From a virus, in the IMG/VR virus record IMGVR_UViG_3300030109_001062, positions 1 to 23,969 of that record: a stretch of 23,969 bases of DNA, one strand, 5' to 3'. Under the pieces are notes generated by a model, which saw only the letters and a list, made by a program, of their open reading frames with translations, ran no database searches and was not told the origin of the DNA. Shown piece after piece: positions 1-16,585 of the stretch. The position numbers and the translations under genes were made by a program. The stretch's first letter is position 1; the number at the start of each line of letters is the position of its first letter.

Positions 1-821
1 ACTTTAATACTACCTGCACCACTAGCTGTAGCAAAGTTGTCTTCATCAAACGGAACACTAAACACTAACTCTTGTGGTGTACTAGACATTCCTGAGTAGA
101 ACATATGGCTCTTAAATGCAGCTACGTGTTTAGCACCAGTAACTGCTGTAGTTACTTCTCCACCCCCTGCTGATGATACATCTGTAGCAGATAGAGATGT
201 GTTAAATACAGTTGGTGCATTTACTTGATCTACAAAAATAAACTTATCGTTGCCATCAAAGTTAAATCTTTCAAATCTATACCTAGCAGCAGACGTTCTA
301 CCTGTATCTCTTACTGTCCAACTTTCCGATACAATGTCTGACGCTGCGTGTGCAGCAGCAGTTGTACTACTTGCAGCTCGTGTTACACCTGTAAGAGTTG
401 TTGCTGTCTTACCTGTATATGTAAATATCTCTGAGTTAATACCTACAGTACCACTAGAACTAAATGAAGTTGTTGATACTACATTGAGAGTACCAGACCC
501 TGTCATACCAGTAGAAGATGCGACCTTTTGACTCAGTGTTGTACTAGCTGAACTATAAACTTTCTCACCTCTAGCAGCAAGAATGTAGTTGCTAAACAAT
601 GCAGACATTAATATAGGTTCAGTACTTAGTGTAGTTTCAGGAACTTGTTGAAAAATATAAGGTTTGAAACCATTGATACGTCTGTACCCACCTTCAACGT
701 CTGGCTCAAAGTTAGTTAACTCTAGTGCCTGTCCGGGTTCCATAATAAAAGTAGACTTGTTTAAAACTAGCCCACCTTCACAATTAAAAGAAAACGGTTG
801 TACTCCTGACTGATCAGCCAT
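1..821 (-). CDS. Tail tube / tail stabilisation protein (T7 gp12-like position), partial
   Basis: The gene starts at ATG 821 and runs off the left edge, so about 273 N-terminal residues are visible. The start overlaps the stop of the upstream tail-tube gene by one base (TAATG), so the two are probably translationally coupled. The N-terminus (MADQSGVQPFSFNCEGGLVL, then NKSTFIMEPGQALELTNFEP and GGYRRINGF) matches what I know as the start of the second tail-tube protein in marine podovirus-like phages: a short lead, a statement-like MEPG turn, then NFEPDVEGGYRRI. Residues of about 99-165 form a Ser/Thr/Gly-rich module ending TGVTRAASSTTAAAHA, which the upstream protein also carries. The gene order head, tube A, tube B supports the call. 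The C-terminal part and any tail fibres must lie left of the window. The exact structural role is inferred from family and position. Confidence 0.75.
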   Translation of the reverse strand, partial: MADQSGVQPFSFNCEGGLVLNKSTFIMEPGQALELTNFEPDVEGGYRRINGFKPYIFQQVPETTLSTEPILMSALFSNYILAARGEKVYSSASTTLSQKVASSTGMTGSGTLNVVSTTSFSSSGTVGINSEIFTYTGKTATTLTGVTRAASSTTAAAHAASDIVSESWTVRDTGRTSAARYRFERFNFDGNDKFIFVDQVNAPTVFNTSLSATDVSSAGGGEVTTAVTGAKHVAAFKSHMFYSGMSSTPQELVFSVPFDEDNFATASGAGSIK

Positions 822-1759
822 TAATTAACTCGTAATACTGTTTTTGAATTTCCTACATAACCTGTTGAAGGTATATATGTAGATCTTATATACTCAAATC
901 TATTAACTAATAAACTCTGCATATTTTTTATACCTTGTTCAAATCTTTCAAAGTTTATACCGTACTGTTGTAACTCACCTCTGTATTGATATATAAATGC
1001 AGTTGCACCATCTACTATAACTGCAGCAAATCTATCAGGTATAGTTGTTGTACTGTCGTGTGCAGCCATGTCTGTAGGATACGTAAAGTAATCAAACTTT
1101 ATTACGTATGATTTATCAGGGTACGGATACATTAAATAGTTATTATCGGGTGTTCGCACTACGTGAGTAGGTACACTTCCTTTATCAAACTGTGCAACTG
1201 TAACTCCACTAGCGTGAGCAGATGCAGTACTAGAGCTTGCACCTCGTGTTACACCTGTAAGATCGTTACCAAGTGTGCCTGTGTAAGATATAATTTCGTT
1301 ACCTATATGTGCAGTACCTGAAGAATCAAACCCTGTAGTAGATGTAAGTGTCAGTGTAGTTACTGAGTCAGAGTGTGATCCATTTAATGTTGTAGTTGTT
1401 ATTTCATCTTCTTGTTCTACTGCTCTACTTACGTAGTCATTATAATTTAAGATAGAAAGTTGACCTCCGCTAACTGCCAAGTCACTATCTTTAACTATTC
1501 TAAATGTGTTGTAGTCTACAACTTTGGTGGTTGTAGGCAATGAGTATCTAACTACTCCAGCCGTAAGTGTTTGTGATTTTGTTGCGTGATTAAAAGGGTA
1601 GTTATATTCTCTTTGATTTATATATCTTACAGCTTCATTGATAGCAGTCTTAGCTTGTGTTTGAATACCTCTAGACGATGAAAAAGTTGAACTAGTTAAT
1701 TCAACTTCGTTTAATCGTGCAAGTACTTTATTAGTTAAAGTTAGATATGTTTCTGCCAT
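821..1759 (-). CDS. Tail tube protein A (T7 gp11-like position), head-tail connector component
   Basis: This 312-residue protein begins MAETYLTLTNKVLARLNEVE and continues with a helical segment containing AKTAINEAVRYINQREYNYP. That pattern is typical of the gp11-like tail-tube/adaptor proteins of marine podovirus-like phages. It should sit below the portal and connect head to tail. Residues of about 135-190 are a beta-rich insertion (NEIISYTGTLGNDLTGVTRG) also found in the next gene. The C-terminal region (NNYLMYPYPDKSYVIKFDYF, then DRFAAVIVDGATAFIYQYRG) is usual for this family. The start at 1759 has only a weak purine stretch ahead of it. A GC-rich hairpin lies between it and the preceding structural gene. 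The stop overlaps the next start. The assignment rests on recognised family-like sequence plus gene order, not on a search. Confidence 0.78.
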   Translation of the reverse strand: MAETYLTLTNKVLARLNEVELTSSTFSSSRGIQTQAKTAINEAVRYINQREYNYPFNHATKSQTLTAGVVRYSLPTTTKVVDYNTFRIVKDSDLAVSGGQLSILNYNDYVSRAVEQEDEITTTTLNGSHSDSVTTLTLTSTTGFDSSGTAHIGNEIISYTGTLGNDLTGVTRGASSSTASAHASGVTVAQFDKGSVPTHVVRTPDNNYLMYPYPDKSYVIKFDYFTYPTDMAAHDSTTTIPDRFAAVIVDGATAFIYQYRGELQQYGINFERFEQGIKNMQSLLVNRFEYIRSTYIPSTGYVGNSKTVLRVN

Positions 1760-2322: not shown

Positions 2323-3396
2323 TTACGCTGCGTTATATACGGCTTGAACAAGAGCTTCTGGACGAAGGATCTTTCTGCCATACAAGTGCATACCACGAAC
2401 AATGTCAGCAAAGCTGTCAGGGTCACGATATGATTCGGTTTTATTGATCTGCTCTGCAGTAGCAACAGCAGAATCGTGTCCAGCCATAATTACACCGTAG
2501 TTAGAAAGCTGGTTCGCTGTACCAGAAGTACCCGGACCTGTTCCAACTGCAGGTAAGTTGCTTGAACTGTATACTCTGAAACCGCCTAAGTTGTTAACAA
2601 CTAGACCATTACGTATACTTCCTGATGCTCCGAAGTCTGCATTGTGAAGACGAGAATCCTCATCACGTAGCATCTCCATGAACACTGGATCTACAACTAG
2701 CCAACGTCCACCTGAATCAACTTGCTGTTGATCAAGTAGTCTAGCCATACGAGATACAACCATCAATGGTGATGCTGTAGCTGTTGGCAAGGATGTTGCA
2801 CCCGGCATACGTGGAGTCAGCGGAATGGAGTGCGTTCCTGCTGAAGTAGTAGTGATGTTACCAAAGTCACCTTTATTTAGTTTCATGCTGGAAAGAAGTT
2901 CATCTGTTCCTGCAGTTGAAACTGCCACACTACCATTTACAGTTGAGTTAACTGTATCTGCTGCACTGTGAATTGATGATTGTTTGTAACCTGATAGGTA
3001 GCCCAATACATCTTGGTCGTACTGGTCAGCCAAACGATATGCTGCTCTATCAGAAGCAAGTTGCATAAAGTTTACGTGGCTGTGAGCTTCTTCAATGTCG
3101 TCAATCTTGAAAGCAAAGTAGTTTGATTTGTCGATTGTCAACGAGAAGTCCTCATCGTCAAGGTCTTGTGGTAGAATAGTTGTACCACGAGCATATGCCT
3201 TAACTGAGATTTCAGGCTCTTTGATTATTTTAACAGTATCGCCTTGTGACGCAATTTCACCGAAGTAATCAGAGTTAGTAATATCTCCAACTACGGTAGA
3301 CTTGCGAAAAGCAACCTGTACTTTCTTCGAGTAGATAATCGAAGAGAAGTTTCCGTTTGGCAGGTTACCATAACCTGCTGCTGTTGAAAAAGCCAT
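2323..3396 (-). CDS. Major capsid protein
   Basis: This 357-residue protein begins MAFSTAAGYGNLPNGNFSSI and continues with YSKKVQVAFRKSTVVGDITN and SDYFGEIASQGDTVKIIKEP, which closely match my memory of the major capsid proteins of HMO-2011-like marine phages (HK97-type fold expected). The DDIEEAHSHVN segment and the C-terminal KILRPEALVQAVYNAA are also typical. The length is normal for the family. It is preceded by a near-perfect ribosome site (AGGAGG, eight bases before ATG), a leader of about 215 bases, and a dedicated sigma70-like promoter at 3619-3647, as expected for the most abundant virion protein. The scaffold gene lies immediately upstream and a likely decoration gene immediately downstream. 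Confidence 0.92.
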   Translation of the reverse strand: MAFSTAAGYGNLPNGNFSSIIYSKKVQVAFRKSTVVGDITNSDYFGEIASQGDTVKIIKEPEISVKAYARGTTILPQDLDDEDFSLTIDKSNYFAFKIDDIEEAHSHVNFMQLASDRAAYRLADQYDQDVLGYLSGYKQSSIHSAADTVNSTVNGSVAVSTAGTDELLSSMKLNKGDFGNITTTSAGTHSIPLTPRMPGATSLPTATASPLMVVSRMARLLDQQQVDSGGRWLVVDPVFMEMLRDEDSRLHNADFGASGSIRNGLVVNNLGGFRVYSSSNLPAVGTGPGTSGTANQLSNYGVIMAGHDSAVATAEQINKTESYRDPDSFADIVRGMHLYGRKILRPEALVQAVYNAA

Positions 3397-3656: not shown

Positions 3657-4562
3657 TTATCGGGCTGCACCTGTCATATCGTAGACAAATCGCCCTGTAC
3701 GCATCGCTTCCATTATTTCATCGGAACGATCTTCGTATTCTTTAGCTGACATTTTATTTACGTCAGACTCTGTAATTTTACTGCTAACTTCATCTGCATC
3801 TACAGAGGTACGTCCTTTCTTAGTGACGATAGCTGCTGCTGCTTTTTTAGCTGATGCTTTTTTAGTTTTATTAACTATGTTATTGTCTGCTTTATACAAA
3901 TCTATTACACGAGCAACTGATGCTGCGTCATCTGAGTTTTCGTATAGAGCATCTTTAACCCATTTAGGTTGTATTTCTACCCAATCATGGAACACATCAC
4001 TTTCTTTTAGCTCATCAAAGTCAGAATGTATAGCTCTTATCTCTGCTTCAGCTTTAGCTCTATTAGCTTGTTCAGCTATTTCATCTAGACGAGTAAGTCT
4101 TTCATCGGCTGCATCGTACATAGCTTTAGCTTCTTTCTTTGCTAATGTAGCTACAATGTTTGCAACATCAGGATACTTTTCTTTCCAAGCTTCTAGTTCT
4201 GCTTCAGTAGTAGGAGCAGCAAAGTTTGCAGGATCAGCTACTTTAGCTTCTAAAGTTTTAACTTGTTCAACCAATTTATTTTGGTGTCTACGAAGATCAT
4301 CATACCGTTTTTTGTATGTTTTTTCTTCTCGTGTTAAATCTGTGTCGTCTTCTGCTTTAGCTTCTACTTCTTTTGGAGCTTCTGTTTTTGCAGTCGTTTC
4401 TACTACTTCTTTTTCTTCTTCAACTGCTTCTTCTTTTCCAGTTTTTAATAGTTCTTCTAGTTCTTTTTCTTCTTTTTCTGCTCTGCGTCTATTTGCATTA
4501 GTGTGTTTGCTGTCAACAAAGCCAGCAGTCTTAGGTGTTTCCATAGTTGATAGTTCGGGCAT
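3657..4562 (-). CDS. Capsid scaffolding protein
   Basis: This 301-residue protein is directly upstream of the major capsid gene. It is dominated by Lys, Glu and Ala and predicted to be almost entirely helical or disordered. The N-terminal third is acidic (GKEEAVEEEKEVVETTAKTE) and the middle is coiled-coil-like (YKKRYDDLRRHQNKLVEQVK). A Lys/Ala-rich stretch (KKASAKKAAAAIVTKKGRTS) precedes a conserved-looking end, MEAMRTGRFVYDMTGAAR. These are hallmarks of phage scaffolds, which guide procapsid assembly and bind the coat through a charged C-terminal segment. The ribosome site AAAAGGAATATAAT precedes ATG. The last codon runs straight into the promoter of the capsid gene, which allows the coat to be made in excess over the scaffold. 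Confidence 0.85.
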   Translation of the reverse strand: MPELSTMETPKTAGFVDSKHTNANRRRAEKEEKELEELLKTGKEEAVEEEKEVVETTAKTEAPKEVEAKAEDDTDLTREEKTYKKRYDDLRRHQNKLVEQVKTLEAKVADPANFAAPTTEAELEAWKEKYPDVANIVATLAKKEAKAMYDAADERLTRLDEIAEQANRAKAEAEIRAIHSDFDELKESDVFHDWVEIQPKWVKDALYENSDDAASVARVIDLYKADNNIVNKTKKASAKKAAAAIVTKKGRTSVDADEVSSKITESDVNKMSAKEYEDRSDEIMEAMRTGRFVYDMTGAAR

Positions 4563-4626: not shown

Positions 4627-6336
4627 TTATTTTTTAGTCTTGGTCTTCTTTTTAGTAGGTTTCTTTAGTAGTCCACCTTTTTGATAAGCACCTGAACTAC
4701 CTCCACCAACTCCTGTGTAAGATACAGAAGGACGCATTGGAGCAGGTCTACTTTGACTTACAGCCCCACTACTACTTGAGTCAGAACTAGATGGTTGACT
4801 TCTACTACCTCCACCGTACTGACCTTCTCCTCTTGGATCATCTAGTCTATCATCTGAACCTGTCATGCCACCACCATAAGTAGCAGTTCTTCCAGTAGGT
4901 GTACTTCCAATAGGTCCACCGCCTACTCCACCTAAATCTTCGTCACGTATTTCTTTAGTTAATGTTTTAGATACTCCAGTAGGAGCTACAATTTTTGCTC
5001 CTCCTTTAGGTGTAAGGTCTTCACCTTTTGTATCAGCATCAGGAGTAACTGTTTTGTATTTAGATTGAAACTTAGTAACAATAGGGTCAGTAGATTTAAA
5101 CTTAGTATTTATTTGATCTTTAGTTAATGTTTTGTATCGTGAACCTAAGAAGCTTTCTTCTTTTGTTAAAAGCCCTTTAGTAATCATGCCATCTCTAAAG
5201 AGAGTTTTATCAAATACACCATCTTTTTTTGCACCATCTCGTATTTCTTTTATTTGAGTTAAATACGCTACCATTTCAGGACTTACCTTTTCTTGCTCTC
5301 GCATTACTTTGCCTTTTAGTGGTCCTTCTGTATGAAACACAATATTTCCTGCTGCATCTCGTAATGCATTTTGACCTACACTTCTTGTTCCTTTATCAAT
5401 TATATGCTCAAGAGCAGCGTCTATATCGTTTTGATATACTTTACTACCACCCATTACACCACTAAGAATTTTTGATCCTAGTCCGGGTAACTCCATACCG
5501 CCAGATTCTAAGATTAAATTTACAAGTTCTTCTGGGTTAGCCCCCATAGGTGTAGGTCTAACTCCTTCAGCAGGATCATACATTTCATCTTGTTCTTTTC
5601 TTTGTTTATATGCAGCTAACTCTTCACTATCTTGTATAAAGAACCCTTGATTAATTAGTGCATTGTAAGCTTCTATATTAGCAGGTTCACCTCCTATGTA
5701 TTGTAGTACTTGTAATGCTCCTGTTGCAGGGTTTACAAATGTTACAAATGTAGATTCAGATCCTGCAGGAGTAGGTGCTGTAGTTTGTGTTTGCTCTAAA
5801 GCTTGTACATTAGGGTTTAAATTAGGGTTGTATACACTTGCACCCGGAGTTGCGTACTGAGTTAAAGGGTACTGTAAAGGATTATATGCAGTTGATGTAT
5901 ATGTTGTGTTGTCTCCACCTGTTTGATATTGACGTACAACACCACCTTCATTCATTAGACCTTTTAACATTTCCATTTCGTTGTTATTAATATCAGGTTT
6001 AACATCTGCCATTTGATCTTGCATAGGCATAGCTACAGGAGTAGGAGTAGATGTAGGTTCGCCACCTATTCTACCAGCTCTATCCATAGCAGCTAATCCT
6101 TGCATAGCTTGTGTACGTAAATCTTCAAAGAACTTAACACCAAAGAATCTAACTACGTTAGCTGGAACTACATACTCACCATCACTAAGTCTAGCTTCTA
6201 CATCATCTCGTACTTCTTTAGCCATACTTCCGGGTGGTATTGGGTTGCCGCTTACAGGATCTACTTTTAGTCCATCATCATCTAGTTTTCCCATATCACG
6301 TTTACCAAACATTTCCATTTGTTGTTCTATAGCCAT
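4627..6336 (-). CDS. Putative virion/internal structural protein with KGGL basic tail
   Basis: This 569-residue protein is encoded between the portal and scaffold genes. Residues of about 37-75 carry the phrase EVRDDVEARLSDGEYVVPAN and then VVRFFGVKFFEDLRTQAMQG, a recurrent motif in marine phage virion-associated proteins whose function I do not know. The rest is low-complexity: Pro/Thr/Gln/Gly-rich linkers, an MNEGGVVRQYQTGGD segment, and a Gly/Ser-rich region (residues of about 480-550) ending AYQKGGLLKKPTKKKTKTKK. The tail is strongly basic and could bind DNA or mark the protein for packaging. The start codon overlaps the stop of the 71-residue gene by one base (TGATG). Its place among head genes suggests a minor head or ejected protein, but no enzymatic domain is visible. 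Confidence 0.55.
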   Translation of the reverse strand: MAIEQQMEMFGKRDMGKLDDDGLKVDPVSGNPIPPGSMAKEVRDDVEARLSDGEYVVPANVVRFFGVKFFEDLRTQAMQGLAAMDRAGRIGGEPTSTPTPVAMPMQDQMADVKPDINNNEMEMLKGLMNEGGVVRQYQTGGDNTTYTSTAYNPLQYPLTQYATPGASVYNPNLNPNVQALEQTQTTAPTPAGSESTFVTFVNPATGALQVLQYIGGEPANIEAYNALINQGFFIQDSEELAAYKQRKEQDEMYDPAEGVRPTPMGANPEELVNLILESGGMELPGLGSKILSGVMGGSKVYQNDIDAALEHIIDKGTRSVGQNALRDAAGNIVFHTEGPLKGKVMREQEKVSPEMVAYLTQIKEIRDGAKKDGVFDKTLFRDGMITKGLLTKEESFLGSRYKTLTKDQINTKFKSTDPIVTKFQSKYKTVTPDADTKGEDLTPKGGAKIVAPTGVSKTLTKEIRDEDLGGVGGGPIGSTPTGRTATYGGGMTGSDDRLDDPRGEGQYGGGSRSQPSSSDSSSSGAVSQSRPAPMRPSVSYTGVGGGSSGAYQKGGLLKKPTKKKTKTKK

Positions 6337-6551
6337 CAGTAAAATCCTTTTGTTTTATCGTCATTGTTAAATTCATCTCGCATATACTTTAAACGTCTGA
6401 GTGCAGCTATCTCACCTTGCGCTCTGTATATCTTTTCGACATCTACTTCTTGTTCTAGTCTTTTGTGTACTAAAGTAATAGTCTCATCTAAATATTCTAA
6501 AAAAGAATCCCATACAGGTTTTTGATTTACTATTTGTTTTAATTCTCTCAC
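6336..6551 (-). CDS. Conserved small phage protein, function unknown
   Basis: This 71-residue protein is helical and charged. The core phrase NQKPVWDSFLEYLDETITLV followed by IYRAQGEIAALRRLKYMRDE is one I recognise as a small conserved protein encoded just after the portal in marine podovirus-like phages. A role as an assembly chaperone or head-completion helper is possible but undemonstrated. Its ATG overlaps the end of the 935-residue gene by four bases (ATGA) and its stop overlaps the next start (TGATG), so it is translationally locked between two large putative virion proteins and probably made in similar amounts. Confidence 0.6.
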   Translation of the reverse strand: MRELKQIVNQKPVWDSFLEYLDETITLVHKRLEQEVDVEKIYRAQGEIAALRRLKYMRDEFNNDDKTKGFY

Positions 6552-9355
6552 GCTGCTACACTCGTGCTTCTTGACATTAAGCCTTTCTTTTGTAAGTTAC
6601 CTACAACTAAACCACCCTTACTAAATTCTAACACAAAGTCTTGCTTGCCTAGTTTTTCACTTAGTTTGCTGATATCTATTACTAAAGCGTTTTGCTCTGC
6701 TATTCTTTTTGCTTGAGTAGATTCACGCAAAACTTGTCTTTCGTTTTCTACTAATTTAATTAATTTTAGCATAACGTCATTGGGACTCGTAAAAAGACTT
6801 TCTGTTTCATATTTGCTAGCTCTAAAAGCTAGTAACTGAAGACGAGTATGTGTTTGTTTTAGTGGGAATGTTTGATACTGACTAGGGCTATAAGTACCGT
6901 ATTTTATAACATTTATCCAAGCATCTGTAAAATCTTTATTGTTGGATTGCATAATATCAGGAGGAAGTCTATTGTCTTTTATATTTTTTGTAACAAAGTC
7001 GTCATCAAAAAATTCATTTCTTAAACGAGGAGAAAGCTCTGCAATTAAGTCTATATAATTTCTTAATTTTTTTTCTAAATTTTCTATATTTGTGTTAAGT
7101 GTTTTATTAATATAAATAGGGTCTGCAGGAATAAGATCTGTTTTCCTTGTTATTTCTTCTGAACTCCTTTGATTATCTGCTACTTTCATAAAGTTGTCTA
7201 GTGCTTCATTGTATTTACCTATTCCTTTTTTACGTTTGTTATAAAACTTGTCTAATTCATCATATCTTTGTTTGCCTCTGAAAACTTCTAAACGTAACTC
7301 GTCAAGTTTCATAAGTTCTTTTATAGAAATCTGTTTATCTATTTTTTTTAAGTCTATTCGTTGTGAACTAATACTTAAGTCTTTTGGTATTACAGGAGAG
7401 TATACAGGAGTTGGCGTTTCAAATGTTGTAATTAATCCGTCTTTCTTTAATTTTTTAAGTGCATTTTTTATAGCTGTATCATAAGTTTGAAAAAACAATC
7501 CTTGTGTTACTTTTTTGTGATACCTTTCTATGCTTTCGTTGGGATCTCGTACATTCATCCCCATTTTTACTCTTGAGTCAAATGGTACTCTAAATATACT
7601 TTTGTCTCGTAAAGAAGCAATTTGTTCAACAGAAGGAATAACAATTTGTTTTATGTTATTTTTATGAGCGTAAGCTATAGTTGCTTGAAGTAGTTGTTTC
7701 ATTACAGCAGTCATACTTTCTGCAGGTAAAGGGTATAACTTAGGTTTAGGAATAGAACCACTTTTTAGAAAATCTTTATCTTCACTTATTTTTCTATTAA
7801 ATTCAGGGTATCCTAAATAATTATTTTGATCTGTAAAATCTGATTCTTTAAATCCTTGGTCGTCAAGTGTATCACGTGTGATTTTTCTTTTTACAGGCAC
7901 ATTAAGAATACTTTGTTTCATTAAAGCTTTGTGATATCTGAGTGTTTCTTTGTCATCTTTAAATGCTTTTAATAATGTTTCATTGTCTAACATAAATGAT
8001 TGTAGTAAATCACTTTGGCCTTCAGTAAGATACACATATTTTGTATTTAATTTTGAGTTAGGGTTTTTCTTTCTCCATTCAGAAAACGTATTTAAATACG
8101 CAGACTCTTGAAAATTGCTTCCCTGTTTTGACGGAAACTTGCTAAGTGTTTCTGGAACAATTCTAGTTTCATCTACAATATCTATTCTAGCGTGAGCTAA
8201 TGTATCAGCAGTATAATGTTGATTACCGTCTGCTAAAACATCTAAAAGTCTTTTATCGTACAGATTAACTAATTCTTCAAACCCTTTATGTGGAACAAGT
8301 CTAAGTCTAATAGTAGCGTAAGTCGGTCCTTTTTTAAAATCATATAGGGGAGTTCCGTCATGTCTATCAAATCCATAAGTATCCATCTTTTTTTTAAGAG
8401 CTACTGTATTGGGATGATCTAGTCCTTTTATTACTGCAGAACTATTGTATGCCTCTACTATTTTAAGATACTTTGAACGAAGACGAAAATAATTATCTAA
8501 ATAAACTCCCGGTCTTTGGTACTTTTGATAATCACTTGCTCTACTAAACGCTTGTGCAAAACCTTCTCTAGAGTCTATGTCTGCAATCTGAGGGTCAAAT
8601 ACATTATTTTTTGCAAGTGTATTTACTCTATCATTTATAACTTCTACACCCTTATTCATTAATTTTACTGGATCAGTTTCATCTATATAAACAGCTTCTA
8701 ATCTAATAGCGTTTCTATTAATTAAATCTTGAGCTGCATCTTTATCAAATCTATCTAAATCAGTTACACTAAATATTTTATCAAATTCAGTATCTTGTCC
8801 TGTTGGAATATTATACTCATTTGCTAATTTTTCTTTAATTTGTTTTAAAGATAATCCTTTTTTAGGAAACTTTATATCATTTATTGCAACTGCTAAAGGG
8901 CTATAAAAATCAGCTAATTTTTTATATGCATTGCTTTCTAGTTTAACGTGTCCAAAACCTTCTTCAAGATCAATTAATGCTGTGTCAATTTCTCCTGTTT
9001 CAAATGCCATAGCTGCTTCATGTCGGGCTTCTTCATATGCTCTTCTATCATAGCCTGCTGCTTCTAACACATCATCAGTTGCTTGTCCTTCCCTCAAAAG
9101 TTTATCTGCTTCACGTAATCGTTTCATTTTAGGATTAGCTTCAGGACTAAACGCATCACTAACTTTAGCTTGGCTTTCAAGAACTTGCATACGAGTTTCA
9201 TCTTTTGTGCTAAAAGGTTCTAACTTAATAGGTTTTTTCTTTTTTCCTCTTGCCATTAAACCTAATACTTCTTCATCTTTAACAACAGGTTTAGGAGTAG
9301 GAGTTTTTATGCCTCCTATTATTCTATCAAAAAATCTTTTTACAGCACTAGACAT
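6548..9355 (-). CDS. Large putative ejected polyvalent-type protein
   Basis: This 935-residue protein lies directly behind the portal gene (TAATG overlap). I see an ordered set of motifs that parallels a module found in very large phage and mobile-element proteins: FYSPLAVAI at about 150, NAIRLEAVYI at about 215, HYTADTLAHARID at about 380, VYLTEGQSDLLQ at about 441, SMTAVMKQLLQATIAYAHKN at about 547 followed by IKQIVIPS, and FFQTYDTAIKNALKKLKKDG at about 621. In the usual form these are FYS.L, N.VQV.EV, LAHIR, EIQSDWHQ, LALKR.L..AAE.GYD.IAW and FYDKILPN. The E-x-QSD core is kept here but the following W is lost. The N-terminus is basic (RGKKKKPIK). The last third is coiled-coil-like and Lys-rich, ending in KGGLVVGNLQKKGLMSR. 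Delivery with the DNA is inferred from position, size and family habit; the biochemical activity is unknown. Confidence 0.55.
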   Translation of the reverse strand: MSSAVKRFFDRIIGGIKTPTPKPVVKDEEVLGLMARGKKKKPIKLEPFSTKDETRMQVLESQAKVSDAFSPEANPKMKRLREADKLLREGQATDDVLEAAGYDRRAYEEARHEAAMAFETGEIDTALIDLEEGFGHVKLESNAYKKLADFYSPLAVAINDIKFPKKGLSLKQIKEKLANEYNIPTGQDTEFDKIFSVTDLDRFDKDAAQDLINRNAIRLEAVYIDETDPVKLMNKGVEVINDRVNTLAKNNVFDPQIADIDSREGFAQAFSRASDYQKYQRPGVYLDNYFRLRSKYLKIVEAYNSSAVIKGLDHPNTVALKKKMDTYGFDRHDGTPLYDFKKGPTYATIRLRLVPHKGFEELVNLYDKRLLDVLADGNQHYTADTLAHARIDIVDETRIVPETLSKFPSKQGSNFQESAYLNTFSEWRKKNPNSKLNTKYVYLTEGQSDLLQSFMLDNETLLKAFKDDKETLRYHKALMKQSILNVPVKRKITRDTLDDQGFKESDFTDQNNYLGYPEFNRKISEDKDFLKSGSIPKPKLYPLPAESMTAVMKQLLQATIAYAHKNNIKQIVIPSVEQIASLRDKSIFRVPFDSRVKMGMNVRDPNESIERYHKKVTQGLFFQTYDTAIKNALKKLKKDGLITTFETPTPVYSPVIPKDLSISSQRIDLKKIDKQISIKELMKLDELRLEVFRGKQRYDELDKFYNKRKKGIGKYNEALDNFMKVADNQRSSEEITRKTDLIPADPIYINKTLNTNIENLEKKLRNYIDLIAELSPRLRNEFFDDDFVTKNIKDNRLPPDIMQSNNKDFTDAWINVIKYGTYSPSQYQTFPLKQTHTRLQLLAFRASKYETESLFTSPNDVMLKLIKLVENERQVLRESTQAKRIAEQNALVIDISKLSEKLGKQDFVLEFSKGGLVVGNLQKKGLMSRSTSVAA

Positions 9356-11532
9356 TATTGAACATTTCCTGTAAATCCTTGTTCACCCGGATTAGGAACT
9401 GTACCTGTTCCTATAGTACCACCACCTGCTCCTGTAGTATCTCGTACTTGAACTCCAGCAGGAGGTTGTTGTGGTGAAGGTGGTTTACCAGCAGGAGGTT
9501 TCATTGGTCCACCTGCAGGAGGTGCAACAGGTGGTGCGCCTTGTGGTGCTGCTTCAGGTACAGCTTCAGGATTTTCTTCTTTAAACTTTTTAAATATCTC
9601 TGCTTGTATAGCTGCATCACTCATAGAGTTAGTAACTTTATCTGGATCTAAATCCATACTTTTAGCTATCTCTCTAATGATAAAGTCCATCTTAGCAAAT
9701 GGTGCAAGTATTGGATTTTGAACTACACCTAAGAACTGCATTAGTCGTTGACTACGTACTTCGTTAGCCATTAGACTTTCTGTACCATTAGCTCTTATTT
9801 CTAAGTCGCCTTTAATTTCAGTATCGTAATCAAACTGCATATTAAAACTAAAGAAAGCTTTACCTAGTGGGCCTAGTAAGTAGTCGTCAACATTTTTAAC
9901 TACTGTTCGTATGCTACCATTTGCCGCACCCATAAGCATAGAGATACCCGATGCAGTTCGTCCTACACCTGACACACCAGTTTGTCCGTGAGCAAAGCTA
10001 GGAAAGCCTGTGCTTTCATCTGCAAGTACACGAGCCTTATCAAATAGCTGCATATTTTCTTGAGCTACATTAGGAAACTTAGTACCAAAGATGCCTTGAC
10101 CCGGTGCGCCACCTTGTCTACGGAATACTTTACCGGGATACACACTCATGTCTTGACCGGGAACTAAGTTAGTCTCGTCAACTTCTATGAGTAAGTTACC
10201 ACTAAGTACAGCATTGTCTACAGCCATACGCATAAATCCATTCATAAGAGTTTGTGTATCGTCCATGTTTTCAGCTATGCCTACACCAAAAAAACTATAA
10301 GGGTTAATTTCGTAAGGTACAGCGTAGTAAGGTAGTATAGCTGGTTTAAAAGGGTTCATAACTAGACGCAGTACTTGTCCGTTACATACCCAGACGTTTG
10401 TGCTTACTTCATCTAAATCTTTTAATTCATTAGGTATTTCAATGTCGTGTTCTTTTAATAACTCAACATCAACATATCCCCAAAACTCTTGTACATCGTA
10501 ACGCTCTGCAGAACTTTGCTGGGCGTCATCTTCCATTTCTTGTTCCCACCATTTTTTTTCGTAAGACTCACCTAATTCAACAGCGTTATCTATTGCATTA
10601 GATCTAAAGAAAGGGCGTTTCTTTAAAGCTCTCATTTGTGAGCGAGACATCTTGTGACGTTCTAAACAATACTCTGCTTCATCCATGTTAGCTGCATCAG
10701 GGTCAGGATAAAAATTCCACACTGATACATAGTTAGTTGCAGGTACAGTTTTAACTACAGGATCGTAGTTACCTTCGTCATTCCAATTAGGGTATTCTTT
10801 ATTAACAGCTAACGGTCCTTTCATAATACCTGTACCAAATAAAGACAACTCAAATGCAGCTAAACGTAATTGTTTATTAGCATTAGACTCTTCAAGTTGG
10901 TCATGTATTTTCTTTTGCATTTTTTTAGCTGCAACCATTGCAGGATGAAAAGATACAGATGTAGGTGTAATAGGAGTAGTCTCTACTATTAAATCACTTA
11001 CTGGCTCTAGTTTTTTTTCTAGTGGTCCTAATCTTTCTTTTAAACTAGTTAGCGTGTCTCCCGGTTCTAACACAGTATCTGGTGTTATTAAAGGTTCAGG
11101 CTTAGAAAAAGTTTCAAGAGACTCTTCTGCAATTTTTTTACCCATATCATCTGTTTCAAATGACACAGTATCAGCTACCCCTTCAGGTAATTTAGTTGGA
11201 TTTACACTTAATGGAAATGTATTATTTCCAAATAGTACATCTACAATTTGTCCATATGCAGCAAGAGTTTTAGTTTTAGTTACTTTAACAAATACCCTAG
11301 ATCTTTCTGCTTCTGTAAACTTTACATCTGCAGAATACAAACCTCTGTAGTTTCTGTAAGCACTCATCCATCTTTGCTCATCAACAAATCTAGCATCTTC
11401 AGCTTTTTTAAAGCGATCTTCTACAAGTTGAACTATGCTTCCTGATTTAGGATCATCTGAGTTTTCTGTATCTTTAATGTCATCTAATGAAGAAGATGCA
11501 TCAGTTTCCATAAAGTTGTTTGTATCAGTCAT
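9355..11532 (-). CDS. Portal protein
   Basis: This 725-residue protein sits between the large terminase and the 935-residue gene. The N-terminal region (FVDEQRWMSAYRNYRGLYSA, then SRVFVKVTKTKTLAAYGQIV and DVLFGNNTFPL) and the middle (VSVWNFYPDPDAANMDEAEY, then PYYAVPYEINPYSFFGVGIA) are typical of the long portal proteins of marine podovirus-like phages. A helix-rich crown and barrel follows, with a clip-like segment around GVGRTASGISMLMGAANGSI. The last 70 residues are Pro/Gly/Ala-rich (PPVAPPAGGPMKPPAGKPPS) and likely disordered. The portal forms the dodecameric DNA entry and exit ring and docks the terminase. Its ATG lies five bases after the terminase stop, and its own stop overlaps the next start by one base. 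Confidence 0.9.
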   Translation of the reverse strand: MTDTNNFMETDASSSLDDIKDTENSDDPKSGSIVQLVEDRFKKAEDARFVDEQRWMSAYRNYRGLYSADVKFTEAERSRVFVKVTKTKTLAAYGQIVDVLFGNNTFPLSVNPTKLPEGVADTVSFETDDMGKKIAEESLETFSKPEPLITPDTVLEPGDTLTSLKERLGPLEKKLEPVSDLIVETTPITPTSVSFHPAMVAAKKMQKKIHDQLEESNANKQLRLAAFELSLFGTGIMKGPLAVNKEYPNWNDEGNYDPVVKTVPATNYVSVWNFYPDPDAANMDEAEYCLERHKMSRSQMRALKKRPFFRSNAIDNAVELGESYEKKWWEQEMEDDAQQSSAERYDVQEFWGYVDVELLKEHDIEIPNELKDLDEVSTNVWVCNGQVLRLVMNPFKPAILPYYAVPYEINPYSFFGVGIAENMDDTQTLMNGFMRMAVDNAVLSGNLLIEVDETNLVPGQDMSVYPGKVFRRQGGAPGQGIFGTKFPNVAQENMQLFDKARVLADESTGFPSFAHGQTGVSGVGRTASGISMLMGAANGSIRTVVKNVDDYLLGPLGKAFFSFNMQFDYDTEIKGDLEIRANGTESLMANEVRSQRLMQFLGVVQNPILAPFAKMDFIIREIAKSMDLDPDKVTNSMSDAAIQAEIFKKFKEENPEAVPEAAPQGAPPVAPPAGGPMKPPAGKPPSPQQPPAGVQVRDTTGAGGGTIGTGTVPNPGEQGFTGNVQ

Positions 11533-13904: not shown

Positions 13905-14423
13905 TTATTCTCCTGCCATTTCTAATGCTGCTTCTAATGTCTCATCGTTTCTACGTGACCACCCTCTACCAAATGTTTTAAACGTAGAAAGGCTTTCGTA
14001 AAACTCTTGACGAACAGAGTGCATCTTAACTATTACATCGTGAGGTTTCATAGCGTGAGTAGCTTTAACTGTCATAGGGCCAATAGCACCATCAGCAGTA
14101 GCACCAACCACCCTCTGTAACGCTTTCGCTGCCCTGCCCATTCCACTATTAACACCCCAATCAAACACAGACCAATCCACTCCACTAGGTAGATCATCAC
14201 AATGCCCCCTATCCCAGTAATTACTTCTGTATATAGGTGAGACATCAATCTTTGTTAATGCTCTCATCTCAGCTTCAGTAGCGTTACGCTTGATGTACTT
14301 TTCGTATACTGCTTTCGTAACACCTAAGTTGGTCATGCCACCCGGATCGTCAGGATGATTTACGAAACCACCTTCGTGGTGTAAAAGCATATCTAAACAT
14401 TTAGAGAAGTTTGCTGCACTCAT
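13905..14423 (-). CDS. Endolysin, GH108-family muramidase
   Basis: This 172-residue protein begins with LHHEGGFVNHPDDPGGMTNL and GVTKAVYEKY, the signature of glycoside hydrolase family 108; the Glu of HHEGG is the expected catalytic acid. SNYWDRGHCDDLPSGVDWSV and FDWGVNSGMGRAAKALQRVV follow. The C-terminal half carries the peptidoglycan-binding pattern typical of the family (GATADGAIGPMTVKA) and ends in GRGWSRRNDETLEAALEM. The length is normal for GH108 endolysins. No signal peptide is seen, so it would need the holin encoded immediately upstream to reach the cell wall. Its ATG overlaps the holin stop by four bases (ATGA), a classic holin-endolysin arrangement. Confidence 0.92.
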   Translation of the reverse strand: MSAANFSKCLDMLLHHEGGFVNHPDDPGGMTNLGVTKAVYEKYIKRNATEAEMRALTKIDVSPIYRSNYWDRGHCDDLPSGVDWSVFDWGVNSGMGRAAKALQRVVGATADGAIGPMTVKATHAMKPHDVIVKMHSVRQEFYESLSTFKTFGRGWSRRNDETLEAALEMAGE

Positions 14424-14818
14424 TTCTTAGCTATGCCTTTGCTCTTTTCATAGCTACGTAAACCGCCAAGTCCTAACATTCCCATAAGAACAGTCATAAG
14501 ACTACCCATATCAAATGCAGGTAAAGGTGGTAGTGTAGCTCCAAACATTGTAGCAAAGAATAAAATGCAAGGCTGCAAGATAAAGTGATACAGCAATGCA
14601 ATTCCACAGATCCAACCCACAAAAGGTCGCCATCCTCCGATAAACAAAGAACCAGACTTTGCCTCTTCTTGATTAACTTTAATCTGAGACATTGCTAGTT
14701 CTTGTGCGTGGCGTTCAGCCATAGTGCTTATCTCGTGAGCGAGAGCATTCTTTTGGTCTTTGTCTTCAATAAACTTGTCAAGAAGACCAGTGACAGGTGA
14801 TATAAGTTGAGCTAACAT
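14420..14818 (-). CDS. Holin of the GTA three-transmembrane type
   Basis: This 132-residue protein has a hydrophilic helical N-terminus (KFIEDKDQKNALAHEISTMA). The phrase SGSLFIGGWRPFVGWICGIA begins the membrane region, with LLYHFILQPCILFFATMFGA continuing it, and a last membrane segment lies near DMGSLMTVLMGMLGLGGLRS. SGS-FIGGWRPFVGW is characteristic of the holin family first noted in gene-transfer agents and common in alphaproteobacterial phages. It should form the inner-membrane lesion that releases the endolysin. It is coupled to both neighbours: TAATG with the upstream Gly/Lys protein and ATGA with the endolysin. The C-terminus is basic (YEKSKGIAKK), as in many holins. Confidence 0.85.
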   Translation of the reverse strand: MLAQLISPVTGLLDKFIEDKDQKNALAHEISTMAERHAQELAMSQIKVNQEEAKSGSLFIGGWRPFVGWICGIALLYHFILQPCILFFATMFGATLPPLPAFDMGSLMTVLMGMLGLGGLRSYEKSKGIAKK

Positions 14819-15090
14819 TATTTAACTTTCTTCTTTGCCATACCACCTTTATTCATAAAGCCCATTTTATTACGTACAGCTTTAGGTAGTTTCTTTAAAC
14901 CTTTTTGATTAGCTGCAGGTTTTTTCATAGACATTCCACCTTCTGCATAACCCATCATTTTTTTCTTTTTAGCCATGCCGCCACCCATCATTTTAGCTGC
15001 AGGTTTTTTCTTTGCCATTCCACCAGCCATCATCTTAGCTTTTGGTGGTCTACCTTTTTTACTTCCATATGTACCTTTTCCTCCGGGCAT
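14818..15090 (-). CDS. Gly-Met-Lys repeat protein, basic
   Basis: This 90-residue protein is built from repeats of the type MMxGGMAKKK: AKMMAGGMAKKKPAAKMMGG, GMAKKKKMMGYAEGGMSMKK, and a final FMNKGGMAKKKVK. It is extremely basic and low in aromatic residues. Proteins of this style are common in uncultured marine phages but have no assigned function that I know. DNA binding inside the capsid or an ejected-peptide role are both guesses. It has a strong ribosome site (AAAAAGGAGAAG) before ATG 15090, and the stop overlaps the holin start. The neighbouring 58-residue protein shares the same repeat unit, suggesting local duplication. Confidence 0.65.
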   Translation of the reverse strand: MPGGKGTYGSKKGRPPKAKMMAGGMAKKKPAAKMMGGGMAKKKKMMGYAEGGMSMKKPAANQKGLKKLPKAVRNKMGFMNKGGMAKKKVK

Positions 15091-15835: not shown

Positions 15836-16585
15836 TTATCTAAACAGACCTGTCTTTCTCATATCTATTAATCCTCCCTTTGCTCGTTTAGTTGCTACAC
15901 CTCTTTTGTAACGCTTTTTACGTTCTTGTTCTAATAGATCTGCTTCTCTTTCTATACGTGTTCTAGTATCTCTTTGATTTCCTGCTCTTCTAGCATCTCG
16001 TTCTCTTTCTTCTTTATTATCCATACGTAATGCTCTGTCTAATGCATCTTGATCTTTTTTTCGCTCTTCCATTTTTTGTACTATTTTTCTAGCAGAATCT
16101 CTTTCTGTAGCTTTTCTATCTGCTTTTTTTATTCTAAACTTAGCAACTGCTTTTGATAAATTGTCTAACGCTTTAGCAGCTTCAGGTCTTCCTCTGACTA
16201 CAGTAGTAGTAGTAGATGTTACTTTAGCTCTTCCTCCTGAAGATTCATCAGGTGTTTTACTATTAGGTTTTTTAGCTACAGTATCTATCTTTTTAGTTTC
16301 TGTTTTCTTTCTTGTTGGTCTTTTAGGTGGGGCAGCAGAAGTTTTAGGTGCAGCAGATTCTTTTTTCTTTTTTGCTGGTCTTTTCTTAGGTGGTGGTGAA
16401 GTTTTTAAATCTTCAGCGTAAGCTGCAATCATTATGTTGCCATTTTTATCTGTGTAGTAAAGACTTCCTGCCTTTTTAGCTGCAGCAATACTTCTATACT
16501 TACCTGCATTTTTTTTAGCTTCTTTAACGGAAAGCCCTTTAGATTTTAATTGAGCATTAATCCATCTTGTTAATCTACTTGCCAT
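15836..16585 (-). CDS. Basic, largely disordered phage protein with KGGL tail
   Basis: This 249-residue protein has a short folded-looking N-terminus (MASRLTRWINAQLKSKGLSV, then AGSLYYTDKNGNIMIAAYAE). A Lys/Pro/Ala/Thr-rich disordered middle (KKRPAKKKKESAAPK) leads into a long charged helix rich in Arg, Lys, Asp and Glu (residues of about 145-235). It ends RAKGGLIDMRKTGLFR. The N-terminal AGSLYYT.K.G..MIAAYAEDL pattern recurs in marine phage contigs. The C-terminal KGGL motif is shared with the 935- and 569-residue head-region proteins, which might mean a common packaging or maturation signal. The charge suggests nucleic-acid binding; no enzymatic motif is visible. Confidence 0.55.
   Translation of the reverse strand: MASRLTRWINAQLKSKGLSVKEAKKNAGKYRSIAAAKKAGSLYYTDKNGNIMIAAYAEDLKTSPPPKKRPAKKKKESAAPKTSAAPPKRPTRKKTETKKIDTVAKKPNSKTPDESSGGRAKVTSTTTTVVRGRPEAAKALDNLSKAVAKFRIKKADRKATERDSARKIVQKMEERKKDQDALDRALRMDNKEERERDARRAGNQRDTRTRIEREADLLEQERKKRYKRGVATKRAKGGLIDMRKTGLFR

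Follow-up and report, generated by a model that had tools for sequence, protein, structure and literature searches.

The internal proteins Ip1, Ip2, and Ip3 of phage T4 have only an N-terminal packaging leader in common and differ in the type IV restriction enzymes that they inhibit (PMC12373910). In phage P1, DarB is a large virion-delivered protein whose gene is numbered next to that of the portal (ORF 10 and 11), and its first 30 residues carry a reporter into the capsid (PMC9024508); DarB itself is an LPD36-methylase-helicase protein (PMC5512222). Here we describe the gene at 6548-9355 (minus strand) of IMG/VR virus record IMGVR_UViG_3300030109_001062; the whole stretch analyzed, positions 1 to 23,969 of that record (23,969 nucleotides), is called the window. 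The open reading frame (ORF) is real, and its product of 935 amino acids (aa), P0001, resembles DarB in being a large protein encoded by a portal neighbor. In contrast to DarB, it has no LPD36, methylase, or SNF2 helicase domains, and an N-terminal capsid signal in P0001 is only hypothetical. The data support P0001 as a distant, insertion-rich representative of a module conserved in large phage polyvalent proteins, referred to below as the EIQSDW module. In uncultured relatives of this uncultured marine virus, the slot that P0001 occupies next to the portal gene (slot 1) is a cassette with exchangeable cargo.

A preliminary description of this DNA had proposed a link between P0001 and polyvalent proteins with the core EIQSDWHQ, on the basis of six ordered strings. 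All six are present in that order: FYSPLAVAI (150-158), NAIRLEAVYI (215-224), LAHARID (386-392), TEGQSDLLQ (444-452), MKQLLQATIAYAHKN (552-566), and FFQTYDTAIKNALKKL (621-636). Direct searches of Pfam, PHROGs, NCBIfam, PDB, phages, and plasmids with P0001 gave nothing useful. Relatives were fetched with the portal as query, and in their post-portal ORFs the series is easier to recognize (FYSPL, LAHTRYS, LIEELQSD, IDEIVLPP, GSGFHNTY). Nine such ORFs were made into a first profile, which detected P0001 at E 1.6e-7. A larger profile, from 56 non-redundant environmental members with the window excluded, scored P0001 at 89.1 bits with the motifs matched in order, while the next best of the 49 window ORFs reached 3.7 bits.

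Because the seeds of the 56-member profile had first been noticed via P0001, an independent canonical set was built from proteins chosen solely by DNA encoding EIQSDWHQ. Among 5,358 ORFs of portal loci, the canonical profile picked mainly post-portal ORFs, with P0001 at E 0.015. Aligned to this set with hhalign, P0001 scored 39.6, whereas the best of 210 controls (60 shuffled P0001 sequences and 150 other ORFs) reached 27.8, and the direct match covered residues 148-230. The marine family as a whole matched the canonical profile at E 1.8e-12 over 383 columns. The motif series of P0001 is far above chance.

Alignment of 57 sequences revealed invariant residues, all kept by P0001, that include P574 and a polar core with H388, R390, E445, Q447, D449, and Y625; at the matching H, R, and EIQSD positions, the canonical set shows little or no variation. 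The profile-detected series of the family, FYS / (S)H..LAHxR / E-x-QSD / helix-strand / (F)YD-type helix, is present in order in P0001. The earlier claim that both the order and the spacing style agree with polyvalent proteins stands for the order and not for the spacing: LAHAR and E-x-QSD lie ~20 residues apart in the canonical model versus 59 in P0001, where long helical stretches are inserted. As had been noticed, P0001 keeps E-x-QSD and has lost the W. The W-H-Q directly after QSD belongs to the canonical branch only, with LLQ in its place in P0001. The marine branch lacks the W throughout, and P0001 is therefore not alone in having lost it. The proposed family link thus holds by profile hidden Markov model (HMM), profile-profile comparison, residue conservation, domain company, and synteny, which together establish membership; profile searches did give matches, and no confident match to an unrelated fold appeared. 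No Pfam or NCBIfam model covers the EIQSDW module.

The company kept by the module matches the polyvalent-protein setting described by Iyer et al. 2017 (PMC5512222). Pfam analysis of 19 large canonical proteins disclosed ART-PolyVal in 8, LPD38 in 3, and RadC in 2, along with single cases of LPD22, ddrB-ParB, PBECR5, SLT, GGDEF, and an SNF2-type helicase. When the canonical module was compared with viral models (BFVD), 27 phage proteins matched with E below 0.001, several of them named large polyvalent or ART-PolyVal-like. The module is also fused to a phrog_342 internal virion protein with an endolysin domain, and in pelagiphage HTVC028P it lies in gp34, flanked by genes annotated as internal protein A and internal virion protein. 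In Pseudomonas aeruginosa plasmids it is found within a ~5,000-aa protein annotated as LPD23 domain-containing; one such protein, in plasmid p382 (L285), carries the full canonical EIQSDW module.

P0001 shares with the large polyvalent proteins the ordered motifs, the invariant residues, and a location among head genes, with portal, capsid, and terminase genes as neighbors. It differs from them in its large insertions, in lacking W-H-Q after QSD, and in having no other enzyme domain. At least two domains of disparate activity, as in polyvalent proteins, are found at the same locus in L034 and L042 (L numbers denote related loci), and not in P0001; in L034, LPD23 (E 1.5e-21) and a HELQH motif (HExxH) are fused to the module. 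With one recognizable module, P0001 is a solo module and not a multi-domain polyvalent protein.

The setting next to the portal, for which the preliminary description had considered a virion gene fitting, is borne out. The start of the P0001 gene overlaps the portal stop by 1 base, its end overlaps the next gene (71 aa) by 4 bases, and the late block runs in the order terminase, portal, P0001, 71-aa gene, 569-aa gene, probable scaffold, major head protein. The window portal is 60-75% identical to those of Roseobacter phages CRP-x and Puniceispirillum phage HMO-2011, which identifies the window as a fragment of an HMO-2011-type podovirus. HMO-2011-type phages, reported as a dominant, broadly distributed marine viral group (PMC9038755), have the same order of portal, terminase, small post-portal ORF, scaffold, and capsid (HMO-2011, CRP-x, HTVC115P). 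In contrast to the window, the isolates examined lack slot 1 and the module and have 335-1395-aa proteins after the small ORF.

Comparison of the relatives revealed how slot 1 is used. Of 93 marine module ORFs, 80 lie directly 3' of the portal, and the remaining ones are at contig ends. In one layout, that of the window, the portal stop is overlapped by the module gene, and the small gene and a separate homologue of the 569-aa protein come next, in that order. In the other, the module lies 3' of the small gene and is fused ahead of the 569-like part (slot 2), giving proteins of roughly 800-2,060 aa. Slot proteins of the first layout have in common a leader of 13-20 aa, MAGLSRLIAKELSxxLG, and a tail, FNxGGLVQRPxR or FNKGGLVKGLMSR. 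Leader codons differ synonymously between lineages, and the leader is therefore conserved at the protein level. The middle varies: the EIQSDW module in some slot proteins, a DIPAY/GPLVLAK domain in L051 and L287, a third protein in L006 and L293, and next to nothing in L017 (61 aa) and L021 (65 aa).

This exchange can be followed between close relatives. L018, with the module, and L287, with the DIPAY cargo, share 99.66% identity over a 4,678-bp flank that ends at base 38 of the slot gene; the cargo is then entirely unlike, and the match resumes in the last ~36 bases of the gene and beyond. The same pattern was found for L288/L287, L293/L287, L017/L287, and L280/L051, and in the portal tree cargo differences occur among nearly identical portals. 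The slot gene of the relatives is a cassette in which cargo is swapped wholesale between a constant leader and tail. In view of these unrelated cargoes, slot 1 was no longer taken for a single fixed structural gene. Raw counts of 31/6 versus 9/43 (Fisher 3e-10) were also obtained for mutual exclusion of cargo between slots 1 and 2; they were not relied on, because slot 1 changes just three times on the portal tree and the test is not independent.

The sister viruses therefore parallel T4 Ip1, Ip2, and Ip3 in holding unrelated cargoes behind one leader at one locus. They differ from T4 in that they belong to another phage lineage, their cargoes are of polyvalent type, the slot protein has an additional constant C-terminal tail, the gene overlaps that of the portal, and packaging is presumed. 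A shared leader with unrelated cargo at one locus is found in the close relatives; the N-terminus of P0001 itself does not conform. P0001 occupies slot 1, and its C-terminus, FSKGGLV...KGLMSR, resembles by eye the tail of L018 and L293.

Three further observations concern these cassettes. The second exchangeable domain (DIPAY ... DPEWxQVGFDPRR ... QVGPLVLAK) occurs in L051, L287, L014, L007, and L083 (CRP-9 gp54), both as slot-1 cargo and inside large slot-2 proteins, and has almost no model match (weak phrog_586). The third slot-1 cargo (NYIVMGKKPQDVSDKTFQNLFITPRTSNKELSGG...) is found in L006, L293, and L022, with no Pfam or PHROG match. Finally, an (F/Y)xxGG(L/M/A) motif near protein ends and domain junctions, possibly a processing or docking site, appears 79 times in 41 fused ORFs, compared with 4.9 times expected from shuffled sequences. 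It also marks module ends in fused relatives and, in the window, the C-termini of the proteins encoded at 6548-9355, 4627-6336, 15836-16585, and 14818-15090 (all on the minus strand).

Taken with the precedents of T4 Ip1-3 and P1 DarB, both tested, these results favor a reading in which P0001 is probably a slot occupant that carries a diverged EIQSDW-type module as cargo, is packaged and ejected, and acts on a host or defense target. P0001 would be made with the late head genes, in keeping with the observed gene order and overlaps, would enter the procapsid near the portal, and would be ejected together with the DNA. In the new host, the H-H-R-E-Q-D-Y core may be enzymatic on a host or defense target. 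The ejection role proposed in the preliminary description is better supported than before, by head-gene adjacency, the HTVC028P setting, and the T4-IP-like cassettes of relatives. Exchange between identical flanks is what one would expect if the slot encodes proteins that are delivered into the host, and the refilling of the slot with unrelated cargoes between constant ends in sister viruses would fit selection by changing host defenses.

The fold is the weakest step of this proposal. The likeliest candidate is a highly modified GNAT-like acyltransferase core, in which the glutamate of E-x-QSD (strand 4) and Y625 (following helix) would stand where GNATs usually have their base and acid. The model of the canonical module has a mean predicted local distance difference test (pLDDT) score of 86 and a predicted template modeling (pTM) score of 0.82, and that of P0001 has ~130 residues above pLDDT 90, centered on the motifs. 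The strand-helix order of both models is compatible with the GNAT order b1-a1-a2-b2-b3-b4-a3-b5-a4, with large insertions: LAHxR forms strand 3, E-x-QSD ends strand 4, and a helix, a strand (IVIPS), and the Y625 helix follow. For the canonical model, GNATs (NatD, Eis-type, Naa50, and others) come first in the PDB list and fill ~20 of the top 50 rows, none significant, and NAT10/Kre33, EsaI, and NAA60 recur in the non-significant list of P0001. A GNAT-like fold is accordingly suggested as a tentative lead, less likely than not, and is not established.

Several observations weigh against the proposal. Regarding the fold, the P0001 model is only partly confident overall (mean pLDDT 64), and comparison of both models with the PDB gave no significant match (best canonical E 0.047, probability at most 0.66). 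Sequence searches for a GNAT family recovered none, and the coenzyme A (CoA) pyrophosphate loop Q/RxxGxG/A typical of GNATs is not in the marine branch; by inspection, no glycine-rich loop follows EGQSD in P0001. Regarding the module, the marine branch has lost the glycines that follow EIQSDWHQ, and P0001 has Asn in place of the lysine that is otherwise invariant after the conserved Tyr. Regarding delivery, no virion proteomics was found for any carrier, and the marine form of the module is in no isolate of the collections searched. The notion that P0001 bears the relatives' leader failed in the leader-profile comparison, since its N-terminus scores like background (rank 7323 of 7374 N-termini with the leader HMM), and the leader claim is limited to the relatives.

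The portal-adjacent position, the placement of the HTVC028P module gene among annotated internal-virion genes, and the phrog_342 fusion could be read as signs of a non-enzymatic part of an internal core or ejection channel at the portal, aiding DNA exit with no host target. We regard this as unlikely. The module is dispensable, being absent from the isolates CRP-9, HMO-2011, and HTVC115P, and near-identical viruses have unrelated cargo or almost nothing instead. Moreover, the strictly conserved polar residues suggest a reaction center and not a shell part, and elsewhere many enzymes are found as fusion partners of the module.

Retention of the first 13-20 codons and of the tail at the protein level in the exchanged genes of relatives, despite synonymous change, argues against a second explanation, in which accessory genes are simply inserted at this site of the late operon, as at any other such site, and the slot product acts unpackaged in the producing cell, for example, in superinfection exclusion. 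Swapping of accessory genes between conserved flanks is frequent, packaging of slot proteins is something that we infer, and the leaderless N-terminus of P0001 would suit such a gene. However, in other members the module is built into the large slot-2 protein, where a GG-type motif closes it too, and we consider this explanation rather improbable. It is very improbable that the gene is a decaying, functionless copy of a polyvalent module swollen by drift, as its extreme divergence (with loss of the W, of the first E of EExQSD, and of a lysine) and long low-confidence helical stretches might imply, because its 935 codons are open with start and stop overlapping both neighbors, every residue invariant across the 57 sequences is retained, and an almost identical copy (one base different, F415L) exists in a separate contig.

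A wider reading is put forward more tentatively. In a widespread uncultured HMO-2011-type branch, a portal-overlapping cassette with a constant leader and GGLV tail may hold cargoes, including a GNAT-like EIQSDW family, that are packaged and ejected as interchangeable counter-defense effectors, with P0001 as an extreme, insertion-swollen cargo form. The polyvalent concept and leader-plus-cargo loci are already known. The unmodelled EIQSDW module family and its solo marine branch appear to be undescribed, as does the portal-overlapping exchange cassette of HMO-2011-type viruses. The strings EIQSDW or QSDWHQ were not found in the searched literature, the limited coverage of which makes this weak evidence of novelty, and polyvalent or internal virion proteins are unmentioned in the main paper on the HMO-2011-type group. 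Despite the reported marine dominance of this group, the isolates searched yielded neither slot nor module, and Pfam and NCBIfam have no model of either. Should the cassette deliver effectors, its first 13-20 codons would offer a ready packaging test and a sequence handle for ejected effectors of uncultured marine phages, and it would provide a compact solo setting for learning the function of the recurrent EIQSDW module.

Table 1. Positions of P0001, its parts, and the neighboring late genes in the window.
Feature	Coordinates	Strand	Remarks
Major head protein	2323..3396	-	phrog_267
Probable scaffold protein	3657..4562	-	phrog_13678; function inferred from position
569-aa protein	4627..6336	-	slot-2 constant part; LSDGEYVVPA... 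near N-terminus
71-aa protein	6336..6551	-	small conserved post-portal protein of group
P0001	6548..9355	-	diverged solo EIQSDW-type module in portal-adjacent slot (slot 1); profile, synteny
Portal protein	9355..11532	-	SU10-type; 60-75% identical to HMO-2011-type phages
P0001 N-terminal region	8912..9355	-	residues 1-148; in place of relatives' short leader
Module N-terminal lobe	8681..8911	-	residues 149-225 (FYSPL...NAIRLEAVYI); matches canonical profile directly
Mostly helical insertion	8327..8680	-	residues 226-343; conserved QR (YQKYQRP 276-282)
QHYTADTLAHARID	8180..8221	-	residues 379-392; conserved H380, H388, R390; strand beta-3 of model
TEGQSDLLQ	8000..8026	-	residues 444-452; invariant E445, Q447, D449; end of strand beta-4
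MKQLLQATIAYAHKN...KQIVIPSVEQIASLRD	7604..7702	-	residues 552-584; helix-strand-helix; conserved P574 and R583
FFQTYDTAIKNALKKL	7448..7495	-	residues 621-636; invariant Y625; counterpart of canonical GMKGFYDKxLP
Helical insertion	6701..7405	-	residues 651-885; low model confidence; absent from compact members
C-terminal strand and tail	6569..6688	-	residues 890-929 (ALVIDIS...FSKGGLV...KGLMSR); matches relatives' cassette tail FNKGGLVKGLMSR

Among the neighbors, the 569-aa protein of the window has no N-terminal cargo, and a tape-measure label from PHROGs was not adopted for it because the match spans just part of the protein. A gene of the 71-aa type lies directly 3' of the portal in viruses without slot 1. 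In nearly all related loci, a small conserved protein (~60-75 aa), possibly an assembly factor, is encoded between the portal or slot 1 and the 569-like gene.

Elsewhere in the window, the adjacent ORFs at 3-821 and 821-1759 (minus strand) encode otherwise different proteins with the common segment TTGFxSSGTxxIxxEIxxYTGxxxxxLTGVTRxAxSxTAxAHA, which is also matched in large structural PHROGs. The 90-aa protein encoded at 14818-15090 (minus strand) consists mostly of KKK-MMGGGMAKKK-type repeats. A GH108-type endolysin is encoded at 13905-14423 (minus strand), whereas the phage lysozyme of HMO-2011 belongs to a different family (annotated as PF00959), which points to lysis gene replacement within the HMO-2011 group.

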